Source of the DNA: an uncultured Spartobacteria bacterium
Lineage (GTDB): Bacteria; Verrucomicrobiota; Verrucomicrobiia; Chthoniobacterales; Chthoniobacteraceae
Reading direction: 5' to 3'
DNA: 55,321 nucleotides
NCBI GenBank assembly: GCA_903882875.1
Contig: CAIRYQ010000121.1
Location: 1 to 55,321 of the forward strand
The notes below the pieces were generated by a model. The model worked only from the letters and a program-made list of their open reading frames with translations, made no database searches and was not told the origin of the DNA. The translations under genes were made by a program, and so were the position numbers. Below are positions 38,138 to 46,740 of the stretch, one piece after another. The stretch's first letter is position 1. The number at the start of each line of letters is the position of its first letter.

Positions 38138-41100
38138 TCAGTTCACGTAGGCCGCCTCGTTGGAAAAGAGCAGCGCCTGCGCGTAGGTTTCCCACGGGTT
38201 CAGCGCGCGACGGGAAACACGGAATCCGTCGTTCTTGATCGCCGCGCGGCCATCCATGCTGTTGCGTCCGCCGTTGTTGAGGTTCTTTGCGACGAAGTTG
38301 TTTGCCGCGCCGTCCTGCGATTCGATCTCGAAGAACTTGCGGCCCATTTCCAGTTCCTTCGGCGTCGGCCTCCGCTGGAAGATGATGCGGTAGAGAGCCA
38401 GTATTTTCCCGCCCTCGACCAGTTCCTCGCGCGTCGGATTTTTCTTCGCGGCGTTTCCCGGCATGGCCCGGTGGAGCAGCATCACGATCTGCGCGTCGGC
38501 ATTCGTGATGTCGCCGGAAAATTCGCGGCGGCCCACGATGCGGCGCACGACATCCACGCTGAACGGGCTGTTCATCAGGAAGAGCGCCTGCTGCGGGACG
38601 ATGGTGGTCGTGCGCTTCGAGTTCGTCATCTCGGGCTTCGAGAAATCGAAGTGCGCCATGAGCTCGGGGAGGTTGCCGCGATCCACATACCCATAGACGC
38701 TGCGGCGAAAACTGTACGGTTCCTCGGTCAGGTTCACCGGCTTGCCGCCGATGCCGCGATCGAGGTTGCCGCTCATCACGAGCAGCGAGTCGCGCACGGA
38801 TTCAAAGTCGAGCCGGCGGACGTTCGCGCGCCAGAGCAGGCGGTTGTAAGGATCCTTGTCCTGATATTCATCAATGACGTGGCTGCTCTCCTGATACACG
38901 CGCGAGAGCATGATGAGGCGGTGCAACTTTTTCAGGCTCCATCCGCTTTCGGTGAAATAGTTCGCGAGGTAGTCGAGCAACTCGGGGTGCGATGGCGTCT
39001 CGGCCATCGTGCCGAGATCGTCGGGCGTGCTCACGAGGCCCTCGCCGAAATGGTGCATCCACACGCGGTTCACCATCACGCGCGCGGTGCGAGGGTTCGC
39101 CTTGTCGGCGATGCACTGCGCGAGTTCGAGGCGTCCGCTTCCTTTTGTAAAAGGCACGCCTTTTCCCTCGGGCGAGAGCACGTCGAGGAAGCGGCGCGGG
39201 ACAATTTCGCCGCGCGTGTTCGCCTGGCCGCGGATGAAGACGGGCGAATCCTCCGCCTGCGGTTTGTCGGCGACGATCATCGCGTACGCGGGCGCGCCGG
39301 GATGCGTGAGTTGGAGTTCGTTCAGCCGCGCGAGACCGCCCTGCGCGTCGCGCTTGCGGTTGTTCGGCAGGCGGTCAATGAGCTGGCGGAAGTCCGCGAT
39401 CGAGAGCGAAGCGCCGGGCTTCACCTCGAAGGGAATCTGAAGCAGCTCGGACATTGAGTCATCCACGCCGCGCACATTTTCGCTGGAGCTGACAGCCATC
39501 TCGTCGAGCCAGATTGCGGATTTTGGCGCGACCATCGCGAACGCCTCGTCGTAGATCTGCCAGACATCCTTGATGGATTTGATCGTGCCGGGCTTTGCAT
39601 TGCGGAACGCGAGCGCGACGAGCCGGTTGATCGGTTTCTTCGCCGTGCCGGGCAACATGCCGGCCTGCACCTGCGCGAGGATCGCAGGCGACTTCGCGGC
39701 AAAGTCCTCGCCCTTCAGCGCGGAGAGCACGGCGAGCGGTCCAAAGACGCTGTCGTCCTTTTTCCTCGTGCGCGCCTCGACGCGGCGCGCGATCTCGTCG
39801 TCGAGCTTGTTCTCAAGGCGGAAATTCGTATAGCGCGAACTCTTGTCGGTCTCGCTGATCGGATCGCGGGAGAGCGTGAGGAGTTCGAGATACTGCGGCG
39901 ACTTCAGCCGGAAGGTCTGGTTGAAGTGCCCGATGGACTCGTAGTACGCGCCAGCGATGTCCTTCTTCACCTCAGCCTCCTTTGCCACAAAATCCGCGAG
40001 CTGATCCTTCGGCGGCAGCGAGCCGATGAGCGGCTTCACATTCGGCTCGGTGATGCTCGAGAAGACGCCGTGCAGCGCGTAGTAGTCCTTCTGCGAGATG
40101 GGATCGAACATGTGGTCATGGCAGCGCGCGCACGAGACGGTCATCGCGAGCATCGCCTTGCTCACGGTGTCAATGCGCTCGTTGATGAGGTCGTTCGGAT
40201 TTCCAAACCGCTCGCCGACGGTGATGAAACCGAGCGCTGCGAGATGTTCGCCATTGTAGCCGAGCTGCTCCTTCGGCAGGAGATCCGCCGCGAGCTGATA
40301 CGTCACGAACTTGTCGTAAGGCATGTCGGCATTGAGCGCATTGAGGACCCAGTCGCGATACGTCCACGCGTATGCGAAGCGGTAGTCCTGGCCGTTCGCA
40401 TTTTCGCCCGCGGTGTCGCTGTAACGCGCGGTGTCGAGCCAGTGGCGGCCCCAGCGCTCGCCGTAGTGCGGCGATGCGAGAAGGCGGTCCACCACGCGCG
40501 CCCACGCATCCGGCGAGTGGTCATTGAGGAATGCCTCGATCTCCTGCGGCGACGGCGGAAGGCCGATGAGATCGTAATACGCGCGGCGCAGCAGCGTCTC
40601 CCGGTCCGCATCGGGCGAAGGCAGCATCTTCGCCGCCTCGACTTTTTGCAGGATGAAGCAGTCCGGCGGCGTGCGGCACCACTGCTGGTTTTTGTTGATC
40701 GGGATCTTCGGCGCTTTCACCGGCTGATACGACCAGTGGGCGCGCGCCTTGTCCGTCATGCCGCTCAGCTTGGTCTTCACGGCGGTGGCGTTTGCGGGCG
40801 TCGGGGCGCCCATCTTCACCCAGGCGGTGAGGTCGGCGATCTGCGTGTCACTCAATTTTCCGCCGGTACTCGACGGCGGCATCTGCATGTCGGGATCGCC
40901 GTAGTTCACCGCCTTGATGAGCAGCGATTTCGCCGGATCACCGGGAACAACGGCAGCGCCCGACTCGCCGCCCTTCAGCATCGCATCGCGCGAATCCAGC
41001 GTGAGGCCGCCCTTGCTTTTCCCGGCGTCCGCGCTGTGGCAGCGGTAGCAGGTGTCCGCGAGCACGGGCCGGATCTTCGCCTCGAAAAACTCCGTCTGTT

Positions 41101-41215
41101 CCTTCGTGATTTCTTCCGCGTGAGCCGCGAACGAGGTCACGAATGCCATGGCGGGAAGCAGGATCAGGCGCGGGGTTGCGGCCAGTTTTCCGGGGGAGAA
41201 AATGGAAGGTTTCAT
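38138..41215 (-). CDS. Planctomycete-type cytochrome C / DUF1549 / DUF1553 protein
   Basis: A 1025-aa exported protein from ATG 41215 (signal LILLPAMAFVTSFAAHAEE). The N-terminal cytochrome C1 domain (PSCyt1) has heme motif CYRCH at 56-60 and DPDMQMPPSS as the likely distal ligand region. It is followed by DUF1549 (LLRRAYYDLIGLPPSPQEIE, HYGERWGRHWLDTARYSDT, a second CARCH in AMTVSCARCHDHMFDP) and C-terminal DUF1553 (VNRVWMHHFGEGLVSTPDDL, RRSVYGYVDRGNLPELMAHF). The protein probably carries out periplasmic electron transfer coupled to an unknown oxidation together with the DUF1501 partner. The stop codons of the two genes are 2 nt apart, tail to tail. Confidence 0.93.
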   Translation of the reverse strand: MKPSIFSPGKLAATPRLILLPAMAFVTSFAAHAEEITKEQTEFFEAKIRPVLADTCYRCHSADAGKSKGGLTLDSRDAMLKGGESGAAVVPGDPAKSLLIKAVNYGDPDMQMPPSSTGGKLSDTQIADLTAWVKMGAPTPANATAVKTKLSGMTDKARAHWSYQPVKAPKIPINKNQQWCRTPPDCFILQKVEAAKMLPSPDADRETLLRRAYYDLIGLPPSPQEIEAFLNDHSPDAWARVVDRLLASPHYGERWGRHWLDTARYSDTAGENANGQDYRFAYAWTYRDWVLNALNADMPYDKFVTYQLAADLLPKEQLGYNGEHLAALGFITVGERFGNPNDLINERIDTVSKAMLAMTVSCARCHDHMFDPISQKDYYALHGVFSSITEPNVKPLIGSLPPKDQLADFVAKEAEVKKDIAGAYYESIGHFNQTFRLKSPQYLELLTLSRDPISETDKSSRYTNFRLENKLDDEIARRVEARTRKKDDSVFGPLAVLSALKGEDFAAKSPAILAQVQAGMLPGTAKKPINRLVALAFRNAKPGTIKSIKDVWQIYDEAFAMVAPKSAIWLDEMAVSSSENVRGVDDSMSELLQIPFEVKPGASLSIADFRQLIDRLPNNRKRDAQGGLARLNELQLTHPGAPAYAMIVADKPQAEDSPVFIRGQANTRGEIVPRRFLDVLSPEGKGVPFTKGSGRLELAQCIADKANPRTARVMVNRVWMHHFGEGLVSTPDDLGTMAETPSHPELLDYLANYFTESGWSLKKLHRLIMLSRVYQESSHVIDEYQDKDPYNRLLWRANVRRLDFESVRDSLLVMSGNLDRGIGGKPVNLTEEPYSFRRSVYGYVDRGNLPELMAHFDFSKPEMTNSKRTTTIVPQQALFLMNSPFSVDVVRRIVGRREFSGDITNADAQIVMLLHRAMPGNAAKKNPTREELVEGGKILALYRIIFQRRPTPKELEMGRKFFEIESQDGAANNFVAKNLNNGGRNSMDGRAAIKNDGFRVSRRALNPWETYAQALLFSNEAAYVN

Positions 41216-41317
41216 GGTGAGAGCGGGCGGCACCATAGCCCGGAAAAAACGTCCCTCCAGCGCGAATTTCGAGTCCGGCAACGACCGCCGGGCACCGGGG
41301 ATTTTCCCGCACTCACC

Positions 41318-41413
41318 ATGCCGATCAAACTGAACGATCTCCTCGGCGCGAATGGCGGAAACGCGGAAGCGCTGGAAACTTCGCCTTCCCTGCGTCATCT
41401 TCCGAACACATGA
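41318..41413 (+). CDS. 31-residue ORF translationally coupled to the Dop-type gene
   Basis: ATG 41318 opens a 31-codon frame that begins MPIKLNDLLGANGG and ends LRHLPNT, with its TGA overlapping the ATG of the Dop-type gene (ATGA, 41410-41413). It is the first start after the divergent promoter region of 102 nt, and no other in-frame start lies close by. The overlap suggests translational coupling, either as a leader peptide or as a functional peptide. It is not Pup or UBact: those are about twice as long and end in Gly-Gly (or Arg/Ser-Gly) plus Gln/Glu, whereas here a GG lies internally. It could equally be a chance ORF in GC-rich DNA. Confidence 0.4.
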   Translation: MPIKLNDLLGANGGNAEALETSPSLRHLPNT

Positions 41414-42906
41414 GACGCGTCTTCGGAATCGAAACCGAGTATGGAATCACCGTGGACGGCATGACCGATGTGGATGTGGTGCGCGAAAGCATCGCCATCG
41501 TGCGCAGCTACACCGAGCACGGCGCGCTGATGAAGTGGGATTACTCGACCGAGGATCCGCACAACGACGCGCGCGGATTCCGAGCGCCCGAGCTGCGGCA
41601 GGACACCGACGAGGCCGCCTACTACGAACTCGACAAGCACCGGAACCTCACCTTCGCGGAAATCAAAAGCGACCTCGTGCTCTCGAACGGCGCGCGCTTT
41701 TACAACGACCACGCGCACCCCGAATACTCGACGCCCGAGTGCGCGACGCTCGCGGACATCGTCGCGCAGGACAAGGCCGGCGAACGCGTGCTCGAGGAGT
41801 GCATGCGCCGCCGCAATTCGCACCTGCCCGAGGGCCAGCGGTGCCGGCTCTACAAAAACAACACCGATTTCCAGGGCCACAGCTACGGGTGCCACGACAA
41901 TTTCCTCATGCGCCGCGAGGTGCCGTGGGAGCGCATCGTGCGCGACAGCGTCTCGTTCCTCGCCACGAGGCAGTTGTTCGCCGGCGCGGGAAAACTGGGC
42001 ATCGAGGGCGAGGACGAGAGCGCGCGACCGGGTGCATTCCAGCTCGCGCAGCGCAGCGATTTCTTCGAGGTGCTCACGAGCATAGACACGATGAACCGCC
42101 GCCCCATCGTGAACACCCGCGACGAGCCGCACGCCGACGGCGATCTCTACCGCCGCTTCCACATCATCGTGGGCGACGCGAACATGTCGGAATGGGCCAC
42201 GGCAATGAAGGTGGGCACCACCGCGCTGGCGCTCGAACTCATCGAGAAAGATCACGCGCCGCGCATCGCGCTCGCCGATCCGATTTCCGCGACGAGCGAA
42301 ATCAGCCGCGACGAGAGTTGGAAATGGATGCTCACTTTTGCCGACGGCCGCACCGCCAGCGCGCTCGACGTGCAGCGCGAATGGCTCGACGCCGCGCGCA
42401 CGCATTGCGACCGCGACGACGACACCGCATGGGTGCTTGCCGAATGGGAAGCCGTCCTGGCCGATCTCGCGCGCGATCCGATGAGCACGCGCGACCGGTG
42501 CGACTGGGCCGCGAAGCGTTTCCTGCTCGATACCTTCCGCGAAGCCGAGAAGCTCGACTGGTCTCACCCGTGGCTCCAGGCACTGGATCTCGAATACCAC
42601 GACGTGTCGCTCGACAACGGGCTCTACTACGAACTCGCCCGCACCGGCCAGATGCGCCGCACCGTCACCGAGGAACAAATCCGCCACGCGATTTTCTACC
42701 CGCCCGAAGGCACGCGCGCGTTTTTCCGCGGCCGCGCCGTCGCACGTTTCAATGCGGATATCACCTCGCTGCAATGGGACGCCCTCACCTTCCGCGAAGG
42801 CTCCGACGCGCAGACGTTCGCCTTCCCCCACCCTGCGTTCGACCCGGCGCTCGATCTTCTCAATTCGCGGATCCGCAACGCGACATCGCTCGATTCGCTT
42901 CGCTGA
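41410..42906 (+). CDS. dop: Dop-type Pup/UBact deamidase-depupylase family protein
   Basis: A 498-aa protein of the carboxylate-amine ligase fold used by Dop and PafA. Visible elements are Mg/ATP residues Glu8 and Glu10 in FGIETEYGI; the Dop-specific loop motif WDYSTEDPHNDARGF, which PafA lacks; NGARFYNDHAHPEYS with the expected catalytic Asp100; LYKNNTDFQGHSYGCHDNFL; NTRDEPHADGDLYRR; GDANMSEWATAMKVGT; and ISRDESWKW. Dop removes the amide from the Pup C-terminus and cleaves Pup from tagged proteins. In Verrucomicrobia the tag would be UBact. No tag, ligase (PafA), proteasome or ATPase gene is in this window; a 31-codon ORF overlaps its start and hrpA follows after 72 nt. Start and length are normal for the family. 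Confidence 0.9.
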   Translation: MRRVFGIETEYGITVDGMTDVDVVRESIAIVRSYTEHGALMKWDYSTEDPHNDARGFRAPELRQDTDEAAYYELDKHRNLTFAEIKSDLVLSNGARFYNDHAHPEYSTPECATLADIVAQDKAGERVLEECMRRRNSHLPEGQRCRLYKNNTDFQGHSYGCHDNFLMRREVPWERIVRDSVSFLATRQLFAGAGKLGIEGEDESARPGAFQLAQRSDFFEVLTSIDTMNRRPIVNTRDEPHADGDLYRRFHIIVGDANMSEWATAMKVGTTALALELIEKDHAPRIALADPISATSEISRDESWKWMLTFADGRTASALDVQREWLDAARTHCDRDDDTAWVLAEWEAVLADLARDPMSTRDRCDWAAKRFLLDTFREAEKLDWSHPWLQALDLEYHDVSLDNGLYYELARTGQMRRTVTEEQIRHAIFYPPEGTRAFFRGRAVARFNADITSLQWDALTFREGSDAQTFAFPHPAFDPALDLLNSRIRNATSLDSLR

Positions 42907-42978: not shown

Positions 42979-45900
42979 GTGCCCACGTTGCAAAATCCGA
43001 CGCCAAATCCATCGCTGCGCATCCACTACCCGCCCGAGCTTCCCGTCTCGGGGAAGCGGGATGATATCCTCGCCGCGCTTGCGCAGCATCAGGTCGTGGT
43101 CGTCGCCGGCGAGACGGGCTCGGGCAAAACGACGCAGCTCCCGAAGATGTGCCTTGAGCGGCTGCTCGTCACCAAAGCGCGCGGACGCATCGGATGCACG
43201 CAGCCGCGACGCATGGCGGCGACCAGCGTTTCGCGCCGCGTGGCCGAGGAACTCGCCGTGCAGTGGGGCCGCGAGGTCGGGTGCAAGGTGCGTTTCGGCG
43301 ACGACACCAGCCGCGAGACGCTCGTGAAATTCATGACGGACGGCATCCTGCTCGCGGAGATCCAGAGCGACCCGATGCTGCGCGCATATTCGATCATCAT
43401 CGTGGACGAGGCGCACGAGCGTTCGCTGAACATTGATTTTCTCCTCGGCCATCTGCGCGGCCTGCTGAAGCGCCGGCCCGATCTGCAAGTCGTGATCACG
43501 TCGGCGACGATTGACACGCAGGCGTTCTCGGCGGCGTTTGCCAATGCGCCGATCATCGAGGCGAGCGGGCGGCTTTTTCCCGTCGAGGTACGCTACAAGG
43601 ACACGTCGGACGAGGAAGGCGAAGGGCTCGTGGAGGATGTCGTCACCATCGTCGAGGAGGCGCTCATCGAGTCGGACGACGGCGACATTCTCGTCTTCCT
43701 CGCGACAGAGCGCGACATCCGCGACACCTGCGATGCGCTCGAAGGCACGCTCGGGAAAAACTTCGAGGTGCTCGGACTTTTCGGACGCATGGCGTCGGCG
43801 GATCAGCAGCGGATTTTTTCGCCGGGGCAGAGACGCCGCGTGATCGTGTCCACAAATGTCGCCGAGACTTCGCTCACGATCCCGCGCATCCGCTACGTGA
43901 TTGATTCCGGCCTCGCGCGCATCAGCCGCTACAATCCACGCACGCGCACGAAGCGCCTGCCCGTCGAACCCGTCGCGCAGAGCAGCGCCAACCAGCGCGC
44001 AGGTCGTGCGGGCCGCGTGCGGGACGGCATCTGCGTGCGGCTCTACGCGCAGGAGGATTTTTGCGCGCGCCCGGCATTCACGCAGCCGGAAATCCAGCGT
44101 GCCAATCTCGCCGAGGTGATCTTGCGGATGAAGGCATTCCGCCTCGGCGAAGTGGAGACGTTTCCCTTTCTGAATCCGCCGTCGAATGCCGCAATGCAGG
44201 CGGGCTACACGCTGCTGCACGAACTCGGCGCACTGAACGACGAGCACGAGATGACACCGCTCGGCCACGAACTCGCGCGGCTGCCGATCGATCCCACGCT
44301 CGGGCGCATGATGCTCCAGGCGGCAAAAGAGGGCGTGCTCCCCGAGGTGCTCGTCATCGCCGCGGGGCTGGGCATCCCCGATCCGCGCGAGCGCCCCGAG
44401 GACGCAAAGGAAGCGGCGACCGCGGCGCACCGCGCGATGGCGGACGCGGAGTCGGACTTTCTCACGTTGCTCCGCATCTGGCGCGCGATGCCGCCCGCCG
44501 AGAGCCGGAATGCGCTGCGCCGCTGGGCAAAGGGAAATTTTTTCAATGCAAGCCGGTTGCGCGAGTGGCGCGACCTGCACCGGCAGCTCGCCGACGCGAT
44601 GGGTGTGAAACCCGCACTGCCGGACCGAGACGTCCACTACGAAGGCATCCACCGCTCGGTGCTCACGGGCCTGCTCGGCCACGTCGCGCGCCGCGAGGAA
44701 CGCAACACCTACAAGGCAACGGGCAACCGGCTCACGACGATCTTCCCCGGCAGCGGACTTTTCGCACGAGGGAAGAAACCCGCATCGGGATCGAAAAAAG
44801 CGCCGGAGGAAAAAGGCAAGGCTCCCTCACAGCCGCAGTGGATCATGGCCGCGGAAATCGTCGAGACCTCCGCGCTCTACGCGCGCACCGCCGCGCGCAT
44901 CCTGCCCGAGTGGATCGCGGATCTCGGCGCGCATCTCTGCTCGAAGCGATACGGCGATCCGTATTGGGATGCCAAGGCTGGGCGCGTGCTCGCGACCGAG
45001 CGCACGATTCTCAGCGGACTCGAAGTCGCACGCGGGCTCGTGGACTACGGGCGCATCGAGCCGAAGGAAGCCACGGAAATCTTCATCCGCGGCGCGCTCA
45101 TCGAGGCGCAGACGCCGGTGCAGCTCCGCTTCTTTTCCGAAAATCAAAAGCTGCGCGTGAAGATGGAAACCGCGCTGACCCGCGTGCGAAACCACCGCGC
45201 GCTCGTGCTCGACGAGATGCTTTACCGTTTCTACGCCGCGCGCATCGAAGCCGTCTCGTCGCTCCACGATCTCCAGCGGTTCGTGAAAGCGCGCCTCACC
45301 GCGGAGCCGGATTTTCTCGTCGCGACCGAGGAGGATCTGCTCGGCGATTCCGGCGCGGACTACGACCGCGATGCATTTCCCGAGCAGGTGCGTCTCGCGA
45401 ACACCGTCCTGCCGCTCTCCTACGAATACAATCCCGGCGACGAGAAGGACGGCGTGACCGTGAACGTCCCGCTGCCCGTCGCGCGCGCTCTCACCGCCGG
45501 GCAACTGCAATGGATGGTGCCCGGAATGCGCGCCGAGCAAATCAGCACGCTGCTCCGCGCGCTGCCGAAGGCGATCCGGAAAACTTTGCAGCCGATCGAG
45601 CCGAAGGTAGGCGAGATCACTGCGGCATTCGATCCGGGAAAGGACGAGTTTCTTTCCGCGCTCGCCGCGCACATCCAGCGCACGTACCGCGTCGCGCTGA
45701 AGGCCGAAGACTGGCCGCCGGACAGCCTGCCCGCGCATCTCATGCCGCGCATTCACATCGTGGACGACCGCAAGCGCGTGATCGCCTCGGGCCGCGATCT
45801 CTCCGCGCTGCACGACGAAATCGGCACTGCCCGCACGCCCGCATGGGATCGCGCGGTGCGCGAGTGGGAGCGCCCGGTCGGAAAATCGTGGAGCTTCGGC

Positions 45901-46740
45901 GACCTGCCGGAAAAAATCACCGTCGAGCAGATTGCCGGCACCCCGCATTTCGCATGGCCCTCGCTCGTCTTCACGGATGCAGGCGCATCCATCCGCCTCT
46001 GCCACGCGCGCGAGGAGGCGGAAGGTCTCGCCGTCCCCGCTGTGCGCCGCCTCGCGGAGATCGCCGCGGAAAAAGATCTCGCGTGGCTCGCGCGGGAATT
46101 CCGCCAGCTCGGCCTCGTGTCGGCACGCACGACAGGCCCTGCGAATTTCCGCCACGCATTCACTGTCGCCACGGCAAAGCTCGCCGGCACCGCGACGCCG
46201 TGGGGCGCGCCCGAATCGCTTTCGCGCGGCGCGATCGCGATGCTCACCGCACACGCATTGCGCCTCTCGCCACCCCTGCCGCTCACCGAGGCGCGCTTCC
46301 GCGAACTGCTCGCCACTTTCCACCGCGACCTGCCTGCCCTCGCACGAAAGGTCGGCGACATCACCGCACAGATCGTCACGCTGCGCCACGCGCTCGTCTC
46401 CTCGCCGCGCCGCTACGCCGCCTTCGATGCCGACCTCGCGCGCCTGCTCCCCACAGATTTTCCGGCGGGCATTCCGTTCACGCAATTCCCGCACATTCCG
46501 CGCTACCTCCGCGCCATGCAGCTCCGTGCCGAACGCGCCGCGCTCGCGCCCGCGAAGGACACGGAGAAGGCACGCCAGCTCGCGCCCTTTCACGGCTGGG
46601 AAAAGCGCGTCGCACCCGCGCGCCACTCGGAGTTCCGCTGGATGCTGGAGGAATTCCGTGTCTCCCTGTTCGCACAGGAACTCGGAACGCCCGCGCCCGT
46701 CTCAGCGCAACGCCTCGCCGCGCTAGGCGGGCTGTCGTGA
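42979..46740 (+). CDS. hrpA: ATP-dependent RNA helicase HrpA (DEAH box)
   Basis: A 1253-aa protein from GTG 42979. Walker A GETGSGKT at 44-51, Walker B/DEAH box VDEAHERS with DEAH at 143-146, motif III SATIDTQAF, and motif VI QRAGRAGRVRDG. Helicase-associated domains follow, and the long C-terminal DUF3418 region typical of HrpA is present (PVARALTAGQLQWMVPG, FLSALAAHIQRTYRV, ending in RYLRAMQLRAERAA). HrpA resolves mRNA structures and, in Escherichia coli, frees collided ribosomes. Length matches the family (about 1300). A short Lys-rich insertion (KKPASGSKKAPEEKGK, around residue 600) interrupts the OB-fold region. It may be co-transcribed with the dop gene. Confidence 0.96.
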   Translation: MPTLQNPTPNPSLRIHYPPELPVSGKRDDILAALAQHQVVVVAGETGSGKTTQLPKMCLERLLVTKARGRIGCTQPRRMAATSVSRRVAEELAVQWGREVGCKVRFGDDTSRETLVKFMTDGILLAEIQSDPMLRAYSIIIVDEAHERSLNIDFLLGHLRGLLKRRPDLQVVITSATIDTQAFSAAFANAPIIEASGRLFPVEVRYKDTSDEEGEGLVEDVVTIVEEALIESDDGDILVFLATERDIRDTCDALEGTLGKNFEVLGLFGRMASADQQRIFSPGQRRRVIVSTNVAETSLTIPRIRYVIDSGLARISRYNPRTRTKRLPVEPVAQSSANQRAGRAGRVRDGICVRLYAQEDFCARPAFTQPEIQRANLAEVILRMKAFRLGEVETFPFLNPPSNAAMQAGYTLLHELGALNDEHEMTPLGHELARLPIDPTLGRMMLQAAKEGVLPEVLVIAAGLGIPDPRERPEDAKEAATAAHRAMADAESDFLTLLRIWRAMPPAESRNALRRWAKGNFFNASRLREWRDLHRQLADAMGVKPALPDRDVHYEGIHRSVLTGLLGHVARREERNTYKATGNRLTTIFPGSGLFARGKKPASGSKKAPEEKGKAPSQPQWIMAAEIVETSALYARTAARILPEWIADLGAHLCSKRYGDPYWDAKAGRVLATERTILSGLEVARGLVDYGRIEPKEATEIFIRGALIEAQTPVQLRFFSENQKLRVKMETALTRVRNHRALVLDEMLYRFYAARIEAVSSLHDLQRFVKARLTAEPDFLVATEEDLLGDSGADYDRDAFPEQVRLANTVLPLSYEYNPGDEKDGVTVNVPLPVARALTAGQLQWMVPGMRAEQISTLLRALPKAIRKTLQPIEPKVGEITAAFDPGKDEFLSALAAHIQRTYRVALKAEDWPPDSLPAHLMPRIHIVDDRKRVIASGRDLSALHDEIGTARTPAWDRAVREWERPVGKSWSFGDLPEKITVEQIAGTPHFAWPSLVFTDAGASIRLCHAREEAEGLAVPAVRRLAEIAAEKDLAWLAREFRQLGLVSARTTGPANFRHAFTVATAKLAGTATPWGAPESLSRGAIAMLTAHALRLSPPLPLTEARFRELLATFHRDLPALARKVGDITAQIVTLRHALVSSPRRYAAFDADLARLLPTDFPAGIPFTQFPHIPRYLRAMQLRAERAALAPAKDTEKARQLAPFHGWEKRVAPARHSEFRWMLEEFRVSLFAQELGTPAPVSAQRLAALGGLS

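Follow-up and report, generated by a model that had tools for sequence, protein, structure and literature searches.

A lone dop gene in a Chthoniobacterales genome is most likely part of a dispersed UBact-proteasome system

What does a Dop-type enzyme act on when no tag, ligase, or proteasome is encoded beside it? This question is raised by a locus on contig CAIRYQ010000121.1 of an uncultured Spartobacteria bacterium (GenBank assembly GCA_903882875.1), of which positions 1 to 55,321 make up the stretch of DNA analysed here (the window). The locus carries a gene for a 498-amino-acid Dop-type protein, and the TGA of a preceding 31-codon open reading frame (ORF) overlaps the ATG of this gene as ATGA. 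Gene, ORF, and overlap lie where a preliminary description, made from the sequence alone, had placed them. It had offered two answers, that the tag and proteasome are encoded elsewhere, or that this Dop acts on a different peptide, such as the one encoded by the ORF. We conclude, with a probability of roughly 0.93, that the gene encodes the Dop of a dispersed UBact-proteasome system and that no tag is encoded by the 31-codon ORF. On this reading dop is no orphan, a new tag is unnecessary, and the system is of a known kind with its genes dispersed. The genome (5.78 Mb in 129 contigs, 96% complete) belongs to the Chthoniobacterales, as judged from its named relatives in that order, which include Chthoniobacter flavus at 70% identity.

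The 498-amino-acid protein is matched over its full length by PF03136 (Pup_ligase; 535 bits), scores higher with the NCBIfam model for Dop (TIGR03688; 471.8 bits) than with that for PafA (TIGR03686; 365 bits), and has the Dop structures 4b0r/5lrt as its best solved relatives in a PDB search. It contains the Dop loop WDYSTEDPHNDARGF, which is ~40 residues long and has a conserved tryptophan. This tryptophan (W43) and residues R96, Y98, D100, H101, H162, H241, and W456 are invariant in 21/21 aligned Dops and correspond in the alignment to W47, R90, Y92, D94, H95, H155, H231, and W453 of Acidothermus Dop, where F49 corresponds to Y45 here. W47, R90, Y92, H95, H155, H231, and W453 are named in the excerpt of PMC8599861 used for this comparison. 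These results bear out the initial assignment of the protein as Dop-like, with a Dop loop. By contrast, the aspartate in NDHAHPEYS, which had been taken to mark Dop over PafA, does not do so. The active-site aspartate column holds D in the 21/21 Dop and in 5/5 PafA-type rows, and an excerpt of a review (PMC12288473) gives PafA the same active-site aspartate as Dop; therefore, this residue cannot tell the two families apart. Instead, Dop is told from PafA by H101 and H241, at which 5/5 PafA-type rows have M and L, respectively. The Dop loop is absent from P0003, the sole PafA-type row that covers that region, the other four having been trimmed to their matched part with the loop region outside them. 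The protein is the only Dop-type member among the two PF03136 matches of the genome.

The statement that tag, ligase, and proteasome are missing holds for the neighbourhood of dop only, and all of them are encoded elsewhere in the genome (Table 1), as the first of the two earlier alternatives had supposed. UBact proteins are covered by families PF20513 and NF033388, and the match on contig C15 (also given as 81 bits) ends in Gln. The PafA-type protein on C114 lacks the Dop loop; a single-sequence PDB search with it returned Dop 9cku first, nearly tied, and PafA 4b0t next. The ATPase on C42 is related to the gene directly before dop in genome G009 and others. The genome-wide search that the preliminary description proposed for UBact/Pup, PafA, PrcA/B, and Mpa thus recovered every component, which is in substance the outcome with which it would have regarded the gene as an ordinary relocated dop. 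The system is split over four contigs (UBact-prcB-prcA, pafA, ARC, and dop). Since >12 kb of contig separates dop, and likewise pafA, from the closer contig end, they are not near other genes of the system even if the contigs adjoin.

Table 1. Features of the dop locus (window coordinates) and system genes on other contigs of the genome (contig:coordinates)
Feature	Position	Strand	Basis or remark
dop, predicted UBact deamidase/de-conjugase, 498 amino acids	41410..42906	+	PF03136, Dop model, and residues
UBact	C15:163665-163793		NF033388, 84.8 bits (cut-off 35); C-terminus …YRQRTGQ
prcB and prcA	C15, just downstream of UBact		over Pfam proteasome cut-off
PafA-type ligase (predicted), second PF03136 protein	C114:12639-13940		PafA model 318.5 bits, Dop model 280.8 bits
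ARC/Mpa-type ATPase	C42:143150-144649		TIGR03689, 444.5 bits
31-codon ORF, most likely no gene	41318..41413	+	tail of 495-codon frame
Putative -35 element of dop, TGGAAA	41373..41378	+	recurs within genus
Putative -10 element of dop, CATCTT	41396..41401	+	8 nt before ATG
PSCyt1/PSCyt2/PSD1 gene, divergent neighbour, outside system	38138..41215	-	PF07635, PF07583, PF07587
HrpA-type helicase, neighbour, outside system	42979..46740	+	DEAD, Helicase_C, HA2, DUF3418

By analogy with the characterised actinobacterial homologues, Dop would convert the C-terminal Gln of UBact to Glu, a deamidation by Dop that is described for Pup in the excerpt of PMC12288473. The PafA-type ligase would then attach UBact through this Glu to lysine residues of its targets. 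Tagged proteins would be unfolded by the ARC/Mpa-type ATPase and passed into the PrcBA core, whose genes adjoin UBact, and Dop may also take UBact off its targets. The DNA before the dop ATG would serve as the dop promoter, and not as a tag gene.

Assignment of this Dop to UBact is supported by the distribution of the two genes. Among 38 genomes of the order, our own included, dop was found in 21 and UBact in 21, both together in 20, neither in 16, and one alone in 2 (Fisher p 1e-8, relatedness ignored). PrcB was found in 22/38, counting a 39-residue remnant in genome G007, and the ARC search spanned 15 chosen genomes of the 38. The G007 remnant (G007:C62:19189-19305) contains a stop. As UBact, dop, and ARC were not found in that genome, the remnant resembles what would be left of a UBact-proteasome system after its loss. 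The C-terminal residue is Gln in 17 and Glu in 5 of the 22 UBact tags read (L048-L068, L005). Retention of dop in 5/5 genomes with a Glu-ending tag (in G027, one of two tags) fits a retained de-conjugation role. Both tag ends occur within one genus, where the tags of G002 and G006 end in Glu. G027 has two UBact genes, one ending in RTGE and beside prcB, the other divergent, ending in RSGQ, and without prcB within 1.5 kb (C227:16653-16781, L068, and C5:125-250, L051); the second could be a second tag or come from a contaminant contig.

The arrangement around dop was surveyed in the best 80 of 208 named, confirmed dop relatives, in stretches of up to 6 kb per side (45/80 loci have 3 kb or more on each side, and 33/80 have 5.9 kb or more). 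Within the fetched stretches, UBact, PrcA, PrcB, or a second PafA-family gene stood beside dop in 0/80 loci, and the same queries recovered 22/22 UBact loci and 20/20 PafA-type loci as a search control. An ARC ATPase gene ends ≤2.5 kb upstream of dop in 50/80 loci. Conversely, within up to 1.5 kb on each side of UBact, prcB was found in 21/22 loci and dop or pafA in 0/22, and UBact or Prc was found beside the PafA-type gene in 0/20 PafA-type loci. Among the examined loci of this order, a dop gene without a tag beside it is therefore usual, and the earlier premise that dop normally adjoins UBact, prcBA, and pafA fails in them. The common layout has UBact-prcB-prcA joined, pafA mostly apart, and ARC-dop paired in many genomes, if not all. 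G009, of the same genus as our genome, has the ARC-dop pair; our genome does not, and most dop-bearing genomes of this genus have dop unlinked from ARC as well. We infer that an original pair was split, and not that separate genes were brought together. In G026, UBact-prcB and a PafA-type gene lie ~5.5 kb apart on the same contig (G026:C121:24414-31267); elsewhere, genomes with both listed carry them on different contigs. The linkage in G026 implies that separation of UBact from pafA is not total everywhere.

We next consider whether the 31-codon ORF could itself supply a substrate. It forms the last part of a 495-codon frame (39926-41413) that runs largely antisense to the PSCyt1 gene. Of the 405 ATGA sites in the window (both strands, any real gene overlaps included), 57 terminate an ORF that starts with ATG and has 31 codons or more; together, these observations imply that chance could account for the ORF. 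In the two closest species, G003 and G004, only the last 17 codons of the ORF can be aligned; the Dops of these species are 92 and 95% identical to ours. An in-frame TGA directly precedes the shared codons in G003, and in G004 the N-terminus is different, the shared codons lying in a 28-codon ORF. In ungapped comparisons of our genome (G000) with G003 and G004, 5-10 of every 10 positions are identical in the first 50 nt upstream of dop and 1-6 of 10 beyond, where G003 and G004 are alike to each other save for one 10-nt step. An alignment for synonymous-site conservation, which the preliminary description had suggested, thus reaches only 17 codons, and it reveals no third-position bias. Substitutions at codon positions 1/2/3 amount to 5/2/6 in the shared part compared to 25/19/144 in dop for G000-G003, 3/3/4 compared to 19/12/109 for G000-G004, and 4/3/2 compared to 26/24/149 for G004-G003. 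In the same order of pairs, non-synonymous to synonymous changed codons are 6:4, 4:3, and 6:2 in the ORF and 40:123, 26:98, and 47:125 in dop (Fisher p 0.02 for G000-G003 and 0.05 for G000-G004). Judged from these alignments, the shared 17 codons do not evolve like a conserved peptide. The peptide has the internal GGN, and lacks the C-terminal GG-Gln/Glu, that had been recorded for it. It ends in NT and not in Gln or Glu, as a UBact tag would, and it matches 0 NCBIfam families. A search of the 80 named loci gave no match to it either, but was too weak for so short a peptide, as even the shared 17 codons of G004 were missed. The earlier alternative of a Dop that acts on this peptide is not supported, as the closest relatives do not conserve the ORF over its whole length and its DNA looks like a promoter. 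The ORF was rejected both as a tag and as a coupled peptide on the grounds of conservation, codon-position pattern, and chance frequency.

Several points weigh against a dispersed UBact-proteasome system with this Dop as a member. Both NCBIfam scores of the 498-amino-acid protein are under the curated cut-offs, that for Dop being 492.3 bits, and we therefore file the protein as a UBact-system Dop and not as the NCBIfam Pup-system equivalog. PrcB (175.3 bits) and PrcA (79.6 bits) are below their NCBIfam cut-offs, the PafA-type protein is under the cut-offs of both the PafA and Dop models, and the ATPase stays below the TIGR03689 cut-off of 504.75 bits. The models concerned (Dop, PafA, PrcA, PrcB, and ARC) take their names from the Pup system or the 20S proteasome. 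The two mismatches in co-occurrence are G004 (750 contigs), which has dop and pafA and in which searches for UBact and prcB found neither, and G011 (110 contigs, 96% complete), which has UBact and prcB and in which dop, pafA, and ARC were not found. The G011 locus is C66:13404-14458 (L063), and its UBact ends in RTGQ. Finally, the last 17 codons of the ORF are open in both G004 and G003, so that a short coding stretch is formally possible.

The DNA of the 31-codon ORF is most likely a dop promoter, as indicated by comparison of upstream regions. A putative -35 element, TGGAAA or TGGAAT, followed by a 17-nt spacer recurs in 5/8 dop-bearing genomes of the genus (G000, G004, G003, G001, and G008). 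For 30 dop genes that do not directly follow ARC (L108 left out), the sequences before the gene were stacked without gaps and anchored on the ATG. The prominent bases were A at position -13 and T at positions -12, -10, and -9, which gives a TATGTT-like pattern; positions -37 to -35 were T-rich, though less strongly. A hexamer at -14 to -9 with A second and T sixth is present in 20/31 dop genes not behind ARC compared to 5/49 behind ARC, and in 2000 shuffles the count never exceeded 8 at any offset. The 31 genes comprise 29 named loci, the window gene, and that of G001; they include L108 (293 nt upstream) and L134, L138, L139, and L166 (ARC 3.5-4.5 kb away, counted as not behind ARC), and leave out L175 and L176, whose matches do not begin at the start codon. 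Shine-Dalgarno-like words precede 2/31 dop genes not behind ARC compared to 12/49 behind ARC. A -10 element at this distance from the ATG implies that transcription starts at or next to it, and the dop mRNA is thus probably leaderless. This promoter assignment is tempered by the absence of the element of the other five genomes from G002 and G006 of the same genus, by the lack of the A/T pair at that place in 11/31 dop genes, by a fit of our own -35/-10 pair to the sigma-70 consensus at 7/12 positions, on which a consensus scan makes no call, and by the relatedness of the 31 genes, whose counts are not independent events. Because the genes are related and the own-genome match is weak, the leaderless start is something that we infer, with less confidence than the Dop/UBact reading. 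For the broader proposal, that dop away from the ATPase gene has its own promoter exactly at the start codon and is leaderless, and that the UBact-proteasome genes came apart in Chthoniobacterales, we put the odds at even. If it is true, activation and removal of the tag would be regulated separately from tag, ligase, and proteasome.

The conserved stretch before dop might instead be the binding site of a regulator of a set of genes, and not a core promoter, since GCTGGAA-N13-TGCGYCA is kept in 5/8 dop-bearing genomes of the genus. We consider this unlikely, because the genome has a single exact copy of the pattern, sites with ≤1 mismatch number 14 compared to 16 for a reversed-pattern control, the sequences fetched around UBact, pafA, and ARC do not carry the pattern on their coding strand, and outside the genus it is the -10-like hexamer that persists, at a constant spacing from the ATG. 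A regulon sharing the pattern was rejected on the single exact site and the control level of near-matches. The consensus for extracytoplasmic function (ECF) sigma factors is GGAA…CGTC; an ECF-sigma reading of the pattern was dropped, as it is the TATGTT-like hexamer that persists outside the genus.

A Dop that is unlinked from its tag, and in most dop-bearing genomes of the genus from ARC too, could also have ceased to be directed at UBact and become available for a different substrate. This is very unlikely given the joint presence of dop and UBact in 20/38 genomes with 2 mismatches, the unchanged catalytic and loop residues, the tag-unlinked position of dop in 80/80 named loci as far as fetched, and its standing as the sole Dop-type PF03136 match in a genome whose tag ends in Gln and so needs deamidation. 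Least likely of all is that the 31-codon ORF is translated, in coupling with dop, into a genuine small peptide that is a second substrate or regulator of Dop: an ATGA overlap is a usual form of such coupling, and the last 17 codons are open in G004 and G003, but the first half has no counterpart in these two closest species, a stop directly precedes the shared part in G003, substitutions have no third-position bias, there is no C-terminal Gln/Glu, NCBIfam match, or match in the 80 named loci (the last from a search too weak to weigh much), 57/405 ATGA sites close an ORF this long, and the genome already encodes a proper UBact.

The placement of dop between a PSCyt1 gene and hrpA was confirmed by domain matches to both neighbours. 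The PSCyt1 gene likely starts near 41215, as read from the sequence. A HrpA-type helicase gene is also downstream of dop in G004, and a PSCyt1 neighbour was not seen beside dop of G003 or G004. Matches to the two neighbours were assessed in the 30 named loci that do not have ARC immediately before dop, where a single, distant PSCyt1 match was found beside dop (L103). One of these 30, L176, has a broken ARC match that overlaps its dop, and ARC may be adjacent there.

Compared to known systems, the genome resembles the UBact-proteasome system of Gram-negative bacteria, reportedly described by Lehmann and colleagues in 2017, in that a Gln-ended UBact, PrcB, PrcA, a PafA-type ligase, Dop, and an ARC/Mpa-type ATPase are all present. 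The genes of our genome are on four contigs, unlike the single neighbourhood in which UBact loci are usually laid out. Acidothermus Dop (4b0r/5lrt) is matched nearly over its full length, and its Dop-loop Trp, its active-site residues, and its Asp at 94 are kept, whereas the tag of our genome is UBact and not actinobacterial Pup, and the score is below the NCBIfam Dop cut-off. As in Pup-PafA neighbourhoods (Iyer et al., 2008; PMC2588565), the enzymes come from one superfamily, with two paralogues in our genome. According to the excerpt of that study, the tag gene is invariably adjacent to a PafA gene; in contrast, an adjoining PafA-family gene (≤1.5 kb per side) is present at 0/22 UBact loci here. 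This comparison suggests that the published neighbourhood rule is not valid across this order, and a missing neighbour there should therefore not be taken as a missing system.
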